From: Paenibacillus piri
GTDB lineage: Bacteria; Bacillota; Bacilli; Paenibacillales; NBRC-103111
Assembly: GCF_004354045.1 (NCBI RefSeq)
Contig: NZ_SMRT01000009.1
Coordinates: 62,001-126,000, forward strand
Length of the DNA: 64,000 nucleotides
Reading direction: 5' to 3'
The notes beneath the pieces are model-generated. The model was not told the DNA's origin. It ran no database searches and worked only from the letters and a program-made list of their open reading frames with translations. Position 1 is the first letter of the stretch. Each line of letters begins with the position of its first letter. Shown piece after piece: positions 8,584 through 14,557 of this stretch. The position numbers and the translations under genes are program-made.

Positions 8584-9720
8584 CTACCATTTGGACGGGT
8601 CGATTTTACTCGGATCGAGCCCCTGCCAAATGTTGCGGATGTTGACGTTTTTCGGATCGTCGAACACGAGCCAGGCCGTAGGCAAATAACGTTCCCCGTA
8701 TTCGCTGGCCGGCCGGTTAATGATTTTATTATCGTGCACGAGGACGGTGGACGAGCCTCCATCCAGATTGGCGGCCGTAACCGCTCCATGCTCGAGAAAA
8801 ATATTTTGGATGTCGAACAAGGTAGCCCCGATGCTGTAGCCTGGCTTTCTGCCGTCGATAATGGCGAACATGATCGTCCCGTCTTCTTTTTGAGCCATAG
8901 CCGTACGCGGTGCAATTCCCCAGCCGTCGGCCTGATTCTTGATCTGCCCGACGCCGTTCACGATGAAACGCGGCGCGAAGGTAACCGCTTCCTGCACGCC
9001 CATCTGCAGCAGCTCGTTCGGTTTGTATTTGCCGGCGACCATGCGCCCTTCCTTGTCGATGCCGACGATGTGAATCGGGGTATTCATTCCGCCGTCATTA
9101 TAAAATACGGTGCCGCCCGACATGACAAGGCCGGTCGGCTGAAAGCCGTTGCCCATCCATTCAGGGTCGACGAATCCGCCGGCATTGACACCGGCCGTGG
9201 CGCCAAGCCGCTTCACCATGGAGGATACTTTTTCTCCCTTGCCTACGGCGCCGGGGACGGCGATGCGAAGCTTTTTCGGATCGTTGACGATCAACAGGTA
9301 GCCTTTAAAATTCGTGCCCGAAATCGGCTCGATTTCGACCAGCGGCTTTTTGGCGACGGCCTCGGTAGTTTCCGGCTTGTTTACTTGTACTAAATGCTGA
9401 TCTTTAACCTCTGCAAAATGATCAAACTGTTGCCAATAACGGTTAACCCGCTTCTCCAGCTCGGCTTCGCCGATCAAATAAGCGGCCCAATGCCGATGCT
9501 GCGTTGAGATCAGCGTATCGGCCATAATATAGCGAAGGTTGGTTCCGGATTTCGTCAGAAAGAACCATAAGCTGAACAGCATGCCAAATAGGAGCAGTAC
9601 GCAAACCGTGTAGAGAAATAAGGTCAACAGGGCGGATGATTTTTTAGCTTTTTTAGGTTTGCGCGGCTTTGCTTTTACGGCAGAGCCGCTGTTCGGACTG
9701 CGTGAAATTTGGGTTGCCAT
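8584..9720 (-). CDS. Membrane-anchored phosphodiester glycosidase family protein
   Basis: 378 residues: basic N-terminus, one membrane helix (about 36-60), then an extracellular domain of the DUF2233/NAGPA type with GVNAGGF, GIAPRTAMAQKEDG, IIDGRKPGYSIGAT and AANLDGGSSTVL. This family includes the lysosomal uncovering enzyme and bacterial exopolysaccharide-linked proteins that cleave sugar phosphodiesters. ATG at 9720 has AAGGA eight bases upstream. The substrate, perhaps a wall or exopolymer, is not known. Confidence 0.82.
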   Translation of the reverse strand: MATQISRSPNSGSAVKAKPRKPKKAKKSSALLTLFLYTVCVLLLFGMLFSLWFFLTKSGTNLRYIMADTLISTQHRHWAAYLIGEAELEKRVNRYWQQFDHFAEVKDQHLVQVNKPETTEAVAKKPLVEIEPISGTNFKGYLLIVNDPKKLRIAVPGAVGKGEKVSSMVKRLGATAGVNAGGFVDPEWMGNGFQPTGLVMSGGTVFYNDGGMNTPIHIVGIDKEGRMVAGKYKPNELLQMGVQEAVTFAPRFIVNGVGQIKNQADGWGIAPRTAMAQKEDGTIMFAIIDGRKPGYSIGATLFDIQNIFLEHGAVTAANLDGGSSTVLVHDNKIINRPASEYGERYLPTAWLVFDDPKNVNIRNIWQGLDPSKIDPSKW

Positions 9721-9814
9721 GAATTCGATCCTTTCCAATGATCTGGTTGTCTTTACCTTATAAACGAAAAAAAGAGAAAAAAGTTTCAGTTTTCACTGTA
9801 CTTTTTCCTCTATT

Positions 9815-11623
9815 TTACATTAAATACAGCTGTTTGTTTTCCCGGATCATCAGCTCGAAATCGGGTGCAGGCATCGGCTTGCTGAACACATAGCCCTGAA
9901 TTTCATTACAGCCCTGGGAGATCAGGAAGTCCAGCTGCTCCCTCGTTTCAACGCCCTCGGCTAAAGATTTGATTTTCAATTTGCGCGACATCGCAATTAG
10001 AGCCGTTACGATAGCGGCATTTTCCTCGTCCGACGTCACATCGCGAATAAATGACTGATCGATTTTGAGTGTATGCACCCGGAACCGTTTCAAATAACTG
10101 AATGACGAATAACCGGTGCCGAAATCATCGATCGAGATGGAAACGCCTAGCGTTCTCAGCTTATTCATCGTATCCATGATATAAGAGACGTTGGTCATGG
10201 CCACGTTTTCGGTAATTTCCAGACAGAGCAGCCTGGGCTCCAAACCGGTTTCCAGTAAAGTTTGCTCGACATAATGAACGAATGACGGCTGATGAAACTG
10301 GATGGCCGAAATGTTGACGGAAACGCACAGCGGTGCATGTCCGAGGCTTTGCCATTCCTTGTTTTGCCGGCATGCCTGCTTCAATACCCAGTTGCCGATC
10401 GGCACGATTAAACCCGTCTCCTCGGCCAATGGGATAAATTCTCCCGGCGAGATAATCCCCCATTCCGGATGGTGCCAGCGTACCAGCGACTCCATTCCGA
10501 AAATTTTACCGTTGTTCAAATCGACAATCGGCTGATAAAACACCCGAAATTCGTTGCGCTCCAACGCCTTGCGCAGGTGAATTTCCAGATTCAATCTATG
10601 CAGGGAGCGCTTGTTCATATCGGGATAGTAATAATGATATGAATTCCCACCTTTCTCCTTGGACCGATACATGGCGATATCGGCGTTTTTTAACAAAGTT
10701 TCCGCATCCATTCCATCATCAGGATAAAGACTGATGCCAATGCTGGCGGTTACGAACAGCTCCTGATCCTCTATGACAAACGGTTCCTTCAATAGATCCG
10801 GAATTCCTTTTGCAAACTGCGCTGCTTCATCGATGTGAGATATGTTGGTTAACAAAATAATAAACTCATCGCCGCCGAAACGCGCAACGATATCTTTTTC
10901 CTTGACATAAACCTTCAGCTTGCGGGCCAAATATTGCAGCAGTTGGTCGCCGACATGATGACCCAGCGTGTCGTTAATGACTTTAAACCGGTCAAGATCG
11001 AAGAAAATAACGGCCATTCTGCCGCCGTCCTGTTCGGCCTGCTCGAAGCATTCCTTCAGCCTTTGGTCAAAATGCAGACGGTTGGGCAGATTGGTCAGCG
11101 AATCGTGATAAGCCATATGTACGATTTTATGCTCGGCTCTGCGGCGCTCATTGACAGCCCGGATAGTTGCGTAGGAGCGAAGAAGCTGTTCGTCCTTTGT
11201 CTCGCTTATAATCCGGGTGAACAGCTCGTCCTGTTCGGCGTCGTCCAATTCCGCATTGGCGGGATCGGTCGTTTTCATCAGCTGCAATATATTTACGATA
11301 TGCTCTTTATGTATGTGTGCGGCTGTAGCGGTCTTGGATTTCAAACGGTCGTCCTTGTCCAAATATACGATGCCTTTCTTGGCATCATAGTCGTGCACAT
11401 GGTTCAAATTGACTAAATTGGCATGGTCCAAAAGTCGAAATCCGTCTTCAAACAGCCATTCCTCCATATTGTCGAAGGAAAAATCCAAATAATACTGCTG
11501 GTCTTTCGTATGAATGGCAATTTCACGATCCCGGATGCGCTCGATCTTAACAATTTCACTCGTATCAACTATTATTATCTCTGACCCTCTCTTGCCATCT
11601 CGAGTAACGGGAATTTTCTGCAT
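9815..11623 (-). CDS. LytTR-GGDEF-EAL protein (DNA-binding domain fused to c-di-GMP enzymes)
   Basis: 602 residues in three parts: a LytTR-type DNA-binding domain (residues 4-115, with the typical VNLNHV strand), a GGDEF diguanylate cyclase domain (about 165-325; YHDSLTNLPNR, FFDLDRFKVINDTLGH, intact GGDEF at 250-254) and an EAL phosphodiesterase domain (about 340-595; ESLVRW, LEITE, DDFGTGYSS, KIDQSFI, AEGVE). The inhibitory site reads KEKD instead of RxxD and the EAL triplet is ESL. There is no receiver, PAS or membrane segment. GGAG lies 9 bases before the ATG at 11623. It is the first gene downstream of agrD on the same strand, behind a hairpin terminator. It likely binds DNA and makes or breaks c-di-GMP. 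Confidence 0.88.
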   Translation of the reverse strand: MQKIPVTRDGKRGSEIIIVDTSEIVKIERIRDREIAIHTKDQQYYLDFSFDNMEEWLFEDGFRLLDHANLVNLNHVHDYDAKKGIVYLDKDDRLKSKTATAAHIHKEHIVNILQLMKTTDPANAELDDAEQDELFTRIISETKDEQLLRSYATIRAVNERRRAEHKIVHMAYHDSLTNLPNRLHFDQRLKECFEQAEQDGGRMAVIFFDLDRFKVINDTLGHHVGDQLLQYLARKLKVYVKEKDIVARFGGDEFIILLTNISHIDEAAQFAKGIPDLLKEPFVIEDQELFVTASIGISLYPDDGMDAETLLKNADIAMYRSKEKGGNSYHYYYPDMNKRSLHRLNLEIHLRKALERNEFRVFYQPIVDLNNGKIFGMESLVRWHHPEWGIISPGEFIPLAEETGLIVPIGNWVLKQACRQNKEWQSLGHAPLCVSVNISAIQFHQPSFVHYVEQTLLETGLEPRLLCLEITENVAMTNVSYIMDTMNKLRTLGVSISIDDFGTGYSSFSYLKRFRVHTLKIDQSFIRDVTSDEENAAIVTALIAMSRKLKIKSLAEGVETREQLDFLISQGCNEIQGYVFSKPMPAPDFELMIRENKQLYLM

Positions 11624-11660
11624 AAGGCTCAGCTCCAAAGAGAAGGATGAAATAAAAGAC

Positions 11661-11686
11661 TGGCTGCCAAGCTGGCTTGGCAGCCA
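11661..11686 (-). terminator. Hairpin after agrD, before the LytTR-GGDEF-EAL gene
   Basis: TGGCTGCCAAG and CTTGGCAGCCA form an 11-base perfect stem with a CCAG loop on the minus strand, followed by GTCTTTTATTT. The T tract is imperfect, so read-through into the next gene is possible. Confidence 0.65.
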
Positions 11687-11701
11687 TTTCTGCTGAAAAG
11701 C

Positions 11702-11824
11702 TTATTTTTTTAAAAGTTCAAGAGGAGTTTCTGGTCTGTTATCCCAAACGGAGTTAGTTGTGACGAATGCGGCAGCAACGGCAACTAAAGCTGAGTTTGC
11801 AATGATAGCGATCCACTTTTTCAT
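11702..11824 (-). CDS. agrD: AgrD-like cyclic lactone autoinducer prepeptide
   Basis: The 40-residue peptide has an amphipathic leader (MKKWIAIIANSALVAVAAAF), a middle TTNSVWDN and an acidic tail RPETPLELLKK, the AgrD layout. No cysteine is present; Ser25, placed as in other Ser-type autoinducers, could close a lactone with the last residue of the mature ring, likely around Asn29. AGGAGG lies 8 bases upstream. It overlaps agrB by four bases, so both are co-translated. Ring borders are inferred. Confidence 0.85.
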   Translation of the reverse strand: MKKWIAIIANSALVAVAAAFVTTNSVWDNRPETPLELLKK

Positions 11825-12378
11825 GGAGTGACCCTCCTTTCTACATAGTGAATTGTATTTTCAAACAGCTTTGTCGTGTGCAAAGCTTGTATGAAAAACG
11901 CGGTTGAAAGGAAATCCAGCTGAAAATAATAGTTGGATGCAACGATAATTACAGAGAAAAGCTTCAGAAGGGGATAATATTTTTTATCGATTCGGCTTAT
12001 ATTTTCAATACCTTGGGGCGCGGTCTTCAGCAGGATGAGCAGCGCCGCCGAATTCAATATGAGCCCTATGTAATAAAAATCGTATTCCACATGCGAAGCG
12101 GTAATGAAAATGACCGACGAGGCGATGCAGCAGGCCAAGGAAGAAGACAAATGCGCTCCTCCGCTTACAAACCGCAGGAGCGTATATACTACAATGATGA
12201 GCAGCGCCTTGGCCAGATGCCCCGTGATCGAACATATAACGATAACTGTAATTATCGTCAACGAAATGTTAATCAATAAACTGAGCGCGTAAAACAAAAC
12301 AGCCTGGGATGCCGCATTCGGATTATTTTTTCGAATCGAGACAGCAAGCGCGTCAGCTGATTTGTCGATAAAATTCAT
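11821..12378 (-). CDS. agrB: AgrB family peptide-processing membrane protease
   Basis: 185 residues with about six membrane segments. The catalytic pair of AgrB, a His and a Cys seven residues apart, is present as GGAH (His76) and LAC (Cys83) in RFVSGGAHLSSSLACC. AgrB removes the C-terminal tail of AgrD and forms the thiolactone or lactone ring at the membrane. It overlaps agrD by 4 bases downstream and the AgrC-like gene by 4 bases upstream, so the three form one translationally coupled operon. Confidence 0.92.
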   Translation of the reverse strand: MNFIDKSADALAVSIRKNNPNAASQAVLFYALSLLINISLTIITVIVICSITGHLAKALLIIVVYTLLRFVSGGAHLSSSLACCIASSVIFITASHVEYDFYYIGLILNSAALLILLKTAPQGIENISRIDKKYYPLLKLFSVIIVASNYYFQLDFLSTAFFIQALHTTKLFENTIHYVERRVTP

Positions 12379-13073
12379 CGGTTCTTCAACCTCTCATATT
12401 TGTCATTTAACAATCTCTTATTATGTCGATAAGCGATTGTAATGCCTGTTATAAATACGATCGATAGAATAACAAGTATCAATGAATGGATCGAGAATTG
12501 GTTGTAGGATAAAGAAGTCAGCTGCATAATAAGCAGGAAAACGACAATAACGGCTGACAGAGCAAAATTATATTTCTGGATCGCCTGCTTCATGGTCAGC
12601 TTGTTGGCCATAAACATAAAACCGAATTTGCGGTATCGGATATAGACGGTAATTAAAAGGACGAGAATGGACGATACAAGGAAAATCGAGCTGGAGTGGA
12701 CAAAATTCGTCCGTGCAATTTCGGCGTTCGTCAAATTCAGCATGGTGGCGCTGGTCATGACCGCGTACTCGACGATCCCGCCCAGCATTAAACCTACTAT
12801 ACTGATCAGAAGCGAATAATAAATAGGAAGACTGAAAAATATCATAATCAAAATCATTTCGGTAGACAGCATACTTAGTACCGCGTAGCTTTTCAACATG
12901 GCAATTTCCCGCAAATAGAAAGAGACGGACGCCATTGTTACCGATATCGTAATAATTTTCCAATAGTTATACCGTAATGGAAAACGGAATATCGACAACG
13001 CCAGTACAGTAATTGTACATAGTTCAAATGTCGAAAAAAGAAATTTAATGAATAAAGATAAGTACACTGTCAT
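12375..13073 (-). CDS. AgrC-like membrane sensor lacking a kinase domain
   Basis: 232 residues, mostly hydrophobic, with about six to seven membrane helices, ending in a short charged helix RHNKRLLNDKYERLKNR. This looks like the N-terminal sensor part of AgrC-type receptors, cut just where the dimerisation and kinase domains would begin. The stop overlaps the agrB start by 4 bases, so there is no room for lost kinase sequence. AAGGAG sits right before the ATG; a GTG two codons on has better spacing. A signal-binding role is inferred from position only. Confidence 0.6.
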   Translation of the reverse strand: MTVYLSLFIKFLFSTFELCTITVLALSIFRFPLRYNYWKIITISVTMASVSFYLREIAMLKSYAVLSMLSTEMILIMIFFSLPIYYSLLISIVGLMLGGIVEYAVMTSATMLNLTNAEIARTNFVHSSSIFLVSSILVLLITVYIRYRKFGFMFMANKLTMKQAIQKYNFALSAVIVVFLLIMQLTSLSYNQFSIHSLILVILSIVFITGITIAYRHNKRLLNDKYERLKNR

Positions 13074-13242
13074 TTCTCCTTAATGATAAATCATACAAGC
13101 CCGGTTGAATGTAGTCTAAAAGTCACAAATTTGGAAAAAAATGAGAAAGGATGTTTACTAAACCTTACTCATCCAGTTTATATTAGATTATTGGAATGTA
13201 CAAGTAGAATATTGTCGAATTAAAGCGCTTGCATTGTTGTTG

Positions 13243-13833
13243 TTATGGCTTTTCCAGTAACGTATTGTAAATAATGGGAATGAAGTTTAATAGGGCGTGA
13301 ATGACGATAACCGGAAAGATCGAAGCTGATTTTTTGTACACATAGCAGAGAATCAATCCGACCAAAAAGTAGGCGAGAGCCCGCTCCGGACTGAGATGGG
13401 CCGCAGCAAATATAAGCGAGGAGACAGCAGCTGCCGCGGCAAAGGGCCATTTGGCGTGCAGAGACCCGAAAATGATTTTCCGGTATACGACCTCTTCGAC
13501 GACAGGACCGATCAGCACGACGTTTACGGCCATAATGGAATACCGGGCCATCAAATCGTCGGTTAGTATGCCGGACGGCTTGAAGATGAGCGTACAGAGC
13601 GCATGAGCGAAAATGCAATACTGCAACCCTTGCCAGACAAGCTTGTAGCTGCAATTTTTGATAATCAGGTTAAAGTCGGCCGCCGCAATTTGTTTTCTCA
13701 GCAAGTATGCAATCGAGACGATGCTAAGGATCGGCAGGAACGATACCGTATATTTGTTTATAAAAAATAAGGATGGACCCGGTCCGGCAAAGGCGAAAAA
13801 AATGAGCAAAATGAGCAGTTCGTTTTTTTTCAC
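13243..13833 (-). CDS. CPBP (Abi) family intramembrane metalloprotease
   Basis: 196 residues with several membrane helices and all CPBP motifs: EEVVYR (Glu113, Glu114, Arg118), a His in AAAHLS (146) and a His in VIHALLNF (179). The family includes CAAX proteases and, in Staphylococcus aureus, MroQ, a CPBP protein needed for Agr peptide maturation. It lies just upstream of the agr operon on the same strand, 170 bases away, which favours a role in processing the AgrD leader or in self-protection. Function here is inferred from context. Confidence 0.85.
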   Translation of the reverse strand: MKKNELLILLIFFAFAGPGPSLFFINKYTVSFLPILSIVSIAYLLRKQIAAADFNLIIKNCSYKLVWQGLQYCIFAHALCTLIFKPSGILTDDLMARYSIMAVNVVLIGPVVEEVVYRKIIFGSLHAKWPFAAAAAVSSLIFAAAHLSPERALAYFLVGLILCYVYKKSASIFPVIVIHALLNFIPIIYNTLLEKP

Positions 13834-13916
13834 AGCAGTTCTCCTTCGGCGGAACGCCTATCATTTTAACAATCCGGGAATGATTCTAAAATATAGTTAA
13901 TAAAATAGGGTATCAC

Positions 13917-13945
13917 TTGACGCTTCCATACAGAAATATTACATT
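13917..13945 (+). promoter_or_regulatory. Sigma-A promoter of the gene at 13991
   Basis: TTGACG (13917-13922), 17-base spacer, TACATT (13940-13945), 45 bases before the start codon. Confidence 0.6.
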
Positions 13946-13990
13946 AGATGTGAGGGAAGGCACATTACAACAAGAAGGGGGATCCTGTTG

Positions 13991-14428
13991 ATGCGAGACA
14001 AGATCATGAACCGCTGGAGCACCTATGAGCCCTTTTATATCGACTTTAACGGATACAAAATCGCCGACATCGTCATTACCAGCCATGCCTTGTCCCGTTG
14101 GGCCGAACGCGTCGGAAGCGAACAGGGAAGCATCGAGTACATATGTGCATATGTATGGGACACTCTGAAGAACAAAAGAATTCATCCTTATTACGAGAAA
14201 GAGAAGGACGTTTATATCATGGACGACGATCTGGTTGTCGTTGCCGAGTTTATCTTGATGAAAGATGAAACCGATATCGCGGGAAATCCGCTGCATAAGA
14301 TGATAATTGTCACTTTTCTTGGTAAAATATCGGAAGATATTCAGCTTCGCGATTTGAAAGCGTATTATTCTTGGCTGCGGCATTCCCGGAGAATGACCTT
14401 GGTCAAGCACGGAAGGAAACGCAAATAA
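13991..14428 (+). CDS. Conserved protein of unknown function
   Basis: 145 residues, soluble, mixed alpha/beta. A stretch TSHALSRWAERVG resembles the His-Ala-x-x-Arg-x-x-x-Arg helix seen in several small RNase-like or DUF4258-type proteins, but the match is too weak to name a family. The start ATG has GGGGG nine bases upstream; a TTG directly before it is possible. Own promoter and terminator make it monocistronic. No antitoxin-like partner is adjacent. Confidence 0.7.
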   Translation: MRDKIMNRWSTYEPFYIDFNGYKIADIVITSHALSRWAERVGSEQGSIEYICAYVWDTLKNKRIHPYYEKEKDVYIMDDDLVVVAEFILMKDETDIAGNPLHKMIIVTFLGKISEDIQLRDLKAYYSWLRHSRRMTLVKHGRKRK

Positions 14429-14436
14429 CGACGGGA

Positions 14437-14468
14437 AGCACGCAGGAGCAGCCTTGCGCGCTTTTTTT
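14437..14468 (+). terminator. Terminator after the 13991 gene
   Basis: AGCACGCA pairs with TGCGCGCT with one mismatch and runs into seven T residues. Confidence 0.7.
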
Positions 14469-14557
14469 GTCTCCATTGCAGAACAGTCGCCCGTACAGAA
14501 GCAAGAAGTCGACGTTAACAGGGCCGGATTGTATGCTGCGGTTCGCATGCGCGCCGG

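Follow-up and report, generated by a model that had tools for sequence, protein, structure and literature searches.

We analysed a 64,000-nucleotide stretch of Paenibacillus piri DNA (contig NZ_SMRT01000009.1, positions 62,001 to 126,000; hereafter the window), which carries a peptide-signalling locus of the Agr type next to a gene for a protein with LytTR, GGDEF and EAL domains. Our analysis indicated, with a probability of about 0.6, that this locus encodes a kinase-free pathway in which a peptide acts without phosphotransfer through a membrane sensor, here called TM0, on LytTR as an input domain and so on the turnover of cyclic di-GMP (c-di-GMP). AgrB, perhaps together with a CPBP protease, would process AgrD to a small, probably cyclic peptide, which TM0 would sense. 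Through its long last helix TM0 would contact the LytTR domain of the LytTR-GGDEF-EAL protein. LytTR would then be a receptor-coupled input and not a DNA-binding output, and c-di-GMP turnover by GGDEF-EAL would change, degradation by EAL probably being the more conserved activity. In this pathway we infer the structure of the peptide, its binding to TM0, the binding of TM0 to LytTR and the direction of the c-di-GMP effect.

On the minus strand, the genes of the CPBP protease, TM0 (a kinase-less AgrC-type sensor), AgrB and AgrD are followed by a hairpin and by the LytTR-GGDEF-EAL gene. A first-pass annotation, made from the letters alone, had described these five genes in this direction and order, together with the kinase-less AgrC-like protein and the hairpin, and all of them were recovered with Pfam, profiles and alignments. 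TM0 and agrB, and likewise agrB and agrD, overlap by 4 bases, so the three genes are probably co-translated. The gene order is conserved across species and genera, which excludes a chance arrangement.

The same annotation had held that both phosphotransfer parts are missing, a view that a separate AgrC/AgrA pair elsewhere in the genome would have contradicted. Neither part is present at the locus, and a search of the whole source genome (about 8 Mb, completeness 99.8%, estimated contamination 9.95%) found neither such a pair nor an AgrA-type protein. Pfam matched LytTR in four proteins of this genome: the window protein, a 126-amino-acid (aa) stand-alone protein on contig 12, a 154-aa stand-alone protein on contig 58, and a LytTR-PAS-HisKA-HATPase on contig 1. 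None of the four has a receiver domain. Among 20 GHKL-type kinase matches in the genome, none lay directly beside agrB and none matched the TM0 profile. A second agr locus on contig 12 (L007:6517-9455) encodes AgrB, a kinase-less sensor, AgrD (core CTGAW, then HEPEMPEEM) and two LytTR proteins, the 126-aa one and a fifth, weak LytTR of 201 aa. Past this agrB, at about 2.8 kb and 3.4 kb, follow genes for an OmpR-type receiver and a HisKA kinase (L007:9828-11878); they are not of the AgrA type. The N-terminal part of the contig-1 LytTR-kinase (L009:3753-5309) is 46% identical to the window LytTR region. This kinase reached 202.8 of 775 bits against NCBIfam KinD, under the cut-off, and among the matches listed all named models were below cut-off; its kinase core suggests the term KinD-like. 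It is possibly a second output of the same peptide.

Pfam gave nothing above cut-off for TM0. However, a profile of the TM0 family matched most of the sensor half of four agrB-adjacent AgrC kinases from another family of the order (E 1e-4, 6e-4 and, weakly, 0.16 and 0.18), and profile-profile comparison of TM0 with AgrC sensors by hhalign gave 93.6% (E 2e-7). The AlphaFold model of TM0 has seven long helices (mean predicted local distance difference test, pLDDT, 88.9), the final one spanning residues 195-231. Judged from these matches, TM0 is an AgrC sensor minus the kinase half.

The LytTR-GGDEF-EAL protein lies in one 607-aa frame (9815-11638) with Pfam matches to LytTR (E 3e-7), GGDEF (1e-51) and EAL (3e-80). 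Translation probably starts at ATG 11623 and not at the TTG at 11638, because most relatives begin with MQKIPVT. The window protein has the catalytic motifs of both enzyme domains (GGDEF, ExL, DDFG, LKID, AEGVE and QG). In the 30 full-length proteins of this kind, E-x-L-x-RW, DDFG, LKID and AEGVE were found in all 30 and GGDEF in 26, so phosphodiesterase looks the more constant activity by motif. Within the genus, 11 of 13 genomes had an ortholog, the window genome counted, and further orthologs were identified elsewhere in the order, in other genera and in other families; the closest matches in named genomes came from Paenibacillus radicis, with 79% over the LytTR region, and from P. foliorum, with 78%. 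In nine of the 11 genomes agrB lies directly upstream of the gene. Our named-genome set comprised 45 loci; LytTR-GGDEF-EAL is encoded at 31 of them and the LytTR-kinase paralog at the other 14. Upstream of LytTR-GGDEF-EAL, 22 of the 31 had intact agrB and TM0, one had broken agr genes and eight had no agr. The conserved synteny that the first-pass annotation had asked to be checked was thus found across species. An apparent remnant of the sensor gene is retained in genome G012 (locus L042), and in Paenibacillus sp. P25 (L129) the agr and fusion frames are broken, or contain sequencing errors. Both look like recent losses of the system, with sequencing errors as the alternative for P25. Sensor and LytTR were adjacent without agrB in three loci (L111, L115, L117), two of them in genomes without any agrB match (G001, G032).

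The loss of the kinase is not limited to this locus. We took a census of 98 genomes of the family with at least 90% completeness; 62 of them had agrB, with 111 agrB loci above cut-off; a 112th match, which fell under the cut-off and contained a stop, was not counted. A kinase-less AgrC-type sensor was found at 107 of the 111 loci, always on the agrB strand and in 106 cases no more than 150 bp away. Of these 107, 77 had a LytTR without receiver at a distance of up to 3.5 kb, both strands counted: stand-alone LytTR in 50, LytTR-GGDEF-EAL in 25 and XRE-LytTR in 18, the last two occurring together in 16. A receiver-LytTR of the AgrA type was present at two of the 111 loci (L261 and L286, confirmed by Pfam). 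The receiver profile of the census was built from two seeds, and four suspect LytTR proteins were rechecked by Pfam, which found no receiver in those of L329 and L349. The two remaining loci had neither a kinase-less sensor nor a receiver-LytTR, and one of them had a sensor fragment at a contig start. Kinase loss is the rule in the family, and LytTR-GGDEF-EAL is one of several outputs. Outside the family we examined 50 hand-picked agrB loci from the class, which are no random sample: among the 30 best-scoring ones (1.5-kb flanks) a kinase was found in 18 and a kinase-less sensor match in none, and among the 20 lower-scoring ones, part of which belong to the same order, 17 had a kinase-less sensor, 14 of these 17 with a LytTR. 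Six kinases among the 50 loci carry a TM0-profile match.

The catalytic His and Cys of AgrB (H-6 residues-C) are kept in 22 of 22 relatives and are visible in the window AgrB too. No Pfam or NCBIfam family matched the 40-aa AgrD. Its sequence aligns with the AgrD of 21 relatives at the same locus position, and these 22 sequences share the pattern T[N/S]-[S/T/C]-xxx(x)-[H/N]-RPExPxEL; the core varies and in the window is TN-S-VWD-N-RPETPLEL. This sequence has the AgrD layout of a leader, a ring nucleophile (Ser/Thr/Cys) and a conserved C-terminal recognition part. The ring would have four residues if H/N starts the tail and five if H/N closes the ring. The CPBP gene was found in many related loci, not in all, and we take its product to be a candidate for the removal of the AgrD leader. 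The nearest agr-linked model was the NCBIfam MroQ equivalog (E 5e-16); at 59 bits against a cut-off of 270 we rejected the protease as MroQ proper, and its membership of the CPBP family itself is confirmed by Pfam.

Table 1. Features of the agr locus and its neighbours in the window (positions on the 64,000-nucleotide stretch).
Feature	Position	Strand	Basis or remark
CPBP glutamic-type intramembrane protease	13243..13833	-	Pfam CPBP E 2e-20
Conserved promoter element TTCGACA-N3-TTCTACTTGT	13200..13219	-	upstream of TM0 gene
TM0, kinase-less AgrC-type sensor, 232 aa, proposed peptide receptor	12375..13073	-	profile and hhalign match to AgrC sensors
AgrB peptidase	11821..12378	-	PF04647 E 2e-15
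AgrD precursor, 40 aa	11702..11824	-	alignment with AgrD of relatives
Hairpin GGCTGCCAAG/CTTGGCAGCC between agrD and LytTR-GGDEF-EAL gene	11662..11685	-	conserved with compensatory changes
LytTR-GGDEF-EAL, 602 aa from ATG 11623	9815..11623	-	Pfam; LytTR about residues 1-112
NAGPA-type phosphodiester glycosidase	8584..9738	-	downstream of LytTR-GGDEF-EAL
146-aa protein, conserved	13988..14428	+	upstream region in relatives carries palindrome tied to XRE-LytTR

In the AgrA motif FFRCHNS, DNA is contacted by residues R198, N201 and S202, and the exchange H200A weakens binding (PMC4227749). We read the corresponding positions in 198 LytTR domains, 13 of which were unreadable, all among the 92 stand-alone ones. 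Asp was found at the H200 position in 39 of 39 LytTR-GGDEF-EAL, 35 of 36 XRE-LytTR and 17 of 17 LytTR-kinase proteins, in 75 of 79 readable stand-alone and five of eight other LytTR domains, and in none of the six receiver-LytTR proteins. The median net charge of LytTR was -4 in LytTR-GGDEF-EAL against -3 in the stand-alone proteins and did not separate the two; because stand-alone LytTRs are equally low, net charge does not decide DNA binding.

Upstream of the TM0 gene, the sequence TTCGACA was present in 19 of 23 loci against 0.46 expected, and two of the four misses had fewer than 30 bases of upstream sequence. In the census it stood upstream in 47 of 110 agr loci against 3.0 expected. Sorted by output, these were 22 of 24 loci with LytTR-GGDEF-EAL, 14 of 54 with other LytTR and 11 of 32 without LytTR. 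The extended element TTCGACA-N3-TTCTRCTTGT occurred with no mismatch once, at the agr locus, in eight of ten genomes and not in the other two; the backward control, allowing one mismatch at most, yielded four hits in three of the ten. Its CTTGT resembles a -35 region, and the promoter is sigma-A-like. TTCGACA is the complement of TGTCGAA, the Spo0A box, and by sequence we prefer a putative control of the agr operon by Spo0A. The stretch CTACTTGT in the element also resembles one half-site in a table of LytTR half-sites (PMC6193735). For LytTR direct repeats upstream of the operon, which in LytTR regulatory systems have a spacer of about 12 bp, we found, judged by eye, one half-site-like conserved stretch with a weak second half.

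This half-site bears on another explanation, in which LytTR-GGDEF-EAL binds the agr promoter as a DNA-binding output, its binding being controlled by the c-di-GMP state or by sequestration at TM0, like the LytTR regulatory systems (LRS) of Streptococcus mutans. Besides the half-site, membership of the LytTR family and AgrA as the nearest solved relative speak for it. However, R198 and H200 are both replaced in all 39 LytTR-GGDEF-EAL proteins and N201 and S202 in most (position 201 is Arg in one and His in one), the part of the element that is invariant looks like a Spo0A box, and the enzyme domains that follow LytTR point to a role as input. We therefore regard this explanation as unlikely. 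The first-pass annotation had proposed that cell density could set c-di-GMP levels or that c-di-GMP could control agr transcription. The link of cell density to c-di-GMP stays plausible, and binding of LytTR to the agr promoter has become less likely because the DNA-contact motif is replaced.

LytTR was found joined to three effectors, GGDEF-EAL, an XRE-type helix-turn-helix (HTH) and a histidine kinase. The LytTR part of the XRE and kinase proteins is below the Pfam cut-off and was recognised from 45-50% identity in the kinases and from hhalign and fold in the XRE proteins. XRE-LytTR, of about 221 aa, is encoded upstream of the agr genes in relatives. Of the 13 genomes of the genus 12 gave a match, and the window genome, with none, is the sole exception. 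The first half of its model (pLDDT 75.5) matches XRE repressors and the second half the LytTR domain of AgrA (Foldseek E 8e-5; Z 9.3, root-mean-square deviation 2.7, 87 aligned), and hhalign related this second half to the window LytTR at 95.5%. The HTH is nearly invariant and the LytTR half varies, so DNA binding is attributed to the HTH. A palindrome, TGTAGTAT-NN-ATACTACA, lies in the region shared with the gene of the 146-aa protein, upstream of that gene in relatives (e.g. L124:7556). With at most one mismatch it occurred once per genome, only at that site, in 12 of 14 genomes, and the backward control gave 0. It was absent from the window genome and from G005, which has no gene for the 146-aa protein at the locus. 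In the window, no copy with up to 3 mismatches was found at 13908-13990, where XRE-LytTR is missing. With neither a genome match nor the palindrome, XRE-LytTR was rejected as a part of the window system and holds for relatives only.

Beside XRE-LytTR, 47 extra kinase-less sensors were found in 17 of the 31 named loci, up to six per locus (arrays in L123, L130, L136 and L142). All 17 loci have XRE-LytTR, and extra sensors occurred in none of the seven loci without it, two of which are cut by contig ends. With a simple pattern no AgrD-like frame was seen beside the array sensors, which by sequence could be receptors for foreign peptides. Such arrays would suit the view that TM0 is not the receptor but an accessory or immunity membrane protein, with the peptide sensed elsewhere or acting on other cells, since up to six kinase-less paralogs beside XRE-LytTR, with no AgrD seen, are unlike one-receptor systems. 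However, TM0 is homologous to AgrC sensors, and no agrB of the genome has a GHKL kinase as its direct neighbour. In a tree of 82 kinase-less sensors, moreover, 46 array members and two other rows formed one strongly supported group, and 23 agrB-partner sensors formed the other group together with AgrC sensors; TM0 falls with the agrB partners, apart from the array proteins. We consider it quite improbable that TM0 is not the receptor.

The kinase-free arrangement is also present in phages. AgrC homologs without HATPase were described in phages Davies, Emery and Abouo in a 2014 paper on a C. difficile phage, which names no LytTR partner for them (PMC3901668). This qualifies the first-pass statement that no Agr system of this make-up had been described, which otherwise proved nearly right. 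Like the window locus, the cassettes of the three phages have kinase-less AgrC homolog(s), AgrB and AgrD. Our analysis showed that Brevibacillus phages Davies and Abouo carry a compact sensor-AgrB-AgrD-LytTR set, in which the gene after agrD, annotated as hypothetical, encodes a LytTR (Davies gp48, L356:10294-10659; Abouo gp47, L357:9555-9923). The Pfam E-values were 0.0074 for Davies, below cut-off, and 9.7e-7 for Abouo, and our own profile gave 8e-10 and 7e-14. Unlike the window protein, the phage LytTR is a stand-alone one. A tblastn search of the phages with the window AgrB gave no match. Since phages carry the four-gene set, sensor and LytTR look sufficient. The set lies 3′ of an integrase gene and is followed by transcriptional-regulator genes; a peptide-based lysogeny switch is possible.

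The hairpin between agrD and the LytTR-GGDEF-EAL gene was aligned in 20 sequences, those of the window and 19 of 22 relatives (L143, L144 and L148 were left out; four rows look shifted). In this alignment 88.6% of cells are paired and covariation is 0.262 against 0.107 in shuffles, none of 500 being as high in either measure; two of five measures did not rise above the shuffles, namely pairs with changes on both sides (68/500) and further pair types (387/500). In window positions 9000-14500 Rfam found nothing at gathering scores. We rejected a plain terminator, as by eye the U run is missing in most relatives. The hairpin may have a role in processing or translation control.

Several observations weigh against the kinase-free pathway. 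The Foldseek search of the TM0 model against the PDB returned no match with E <= 0.001. The hairpin could partly uncouple LytTR-GGDEF-EAL from agrBD. No functional agr accompanies LytTR-GGDEF-EAL in nine of the 31 named loci (eight absent, one degraded), and genome G007 has TM0-agrBD without LytTR-GGDEF-EAL. In the census, 30 of the 107 sensor-agrB loci had no LytTR within 3.5 kb, four of these having one further off. Finally, Arg or Lys occupies position 201 in 43 of the 79 readable stand-alone LytTRs. With basic contact residues retained so often, the loss of DNA binding is not general; judged from such residues, stand-alone LytTRs may still bind DNA and fused members may use LytTR to receive the signal. 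The hairpin and the nine loci would also agree with LytTR-GGDEF-EAL as a mere neighbour that is transcribed from the same region without control by the peptide, but its adjacency is conserved across genera and LytTR proteins of the same signature lie behind agrD in stand-alone systems and phages, which makes this the least probable explanation.

Downstream, the gene of the NAGPA-type glycosidase was found 3′ of LytTR-GGDEF-EAL in 30 of the 31 named loci, even where agr was lost. It is possibly a target or partner gene.

Canonical Agr systems (AgrBDCA) are those of Staphylococcus, Listeria and Clostridium. The window system shares with them AgrB with its His/Cys, AgrD with leader, ring region and C-terminal part, and the AgrC-type sensor. 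It differs from them in that the sensor has no kinase and LytTR has no receiver and is fused to GGDEF-EAL. With the S. mutans-type LRS (HdrRM, BrsRM) it shares a LytTR protein and a membrane protein without kinase or receiver (PMC6193735). However, the membrane proteins of such LRS belong to DUF3021 or DUF2154, and the one in the window is an AgrC sensor: neither TM0 nor two array sensors had a Pfam match above cut-off, and hence none to these families. The window system also has its own AgrB/AgrD signal and an enzyme as output. The regulator gene comes first in LRS, whereas in the window the receptor comes first and LytTR last; the same paper also names putative LRS whose membrane protein is of another kind, and LRS-like operons of Bacteroides that share the reversed order (PMC6193735). 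MHYT-GGDEF-EAL and MHYT-PAS-GGDEF-EAL sensors likewise have an input domain ahead of GGDEF-EAL (PMC11347149), but in the window protein this domain is LytTR and is linked to a putative peptide receptor gene. With two features of canonical Agr and two of LRS lacking, the window system reads as a hybrid of both. Among the matches listed in the open-access literature, no paper on LytTR-GGDEF-EAL linked to agrBD was found, and none on a LytTR partner or a GGDEF-EAL output for a kinase-less AgrC.

More tentatively, and at somewhat under even odds, we suggest a branch of Agr systems in Bacilli and phages in which a kinase-less sensor contacts a LytTR module with the His-to-Asp exchange, carried on GGDEF-EAL, XRE or a KinD-like kinase. 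A single peptide could then govern sporulation and local transcription as well as c-di-GMP, and Spo0A could in turn act back on the agr operon. The exchange H200D in LytTR, together with a kinase-less sensor beside agrB, offers a search rule for such systems. If the kinase-free pathway is true, signal input and DNA binding would be separate functions of a domain that is commonly depicted as a DNA binder, and a quorum peptide could act directly on c-di-GMP, a new entry route for a quorum signal. The best-known peptide quorum sensor of Gram-positive bacteria would then work without phosphotransfer in many soil bacteria and phages.

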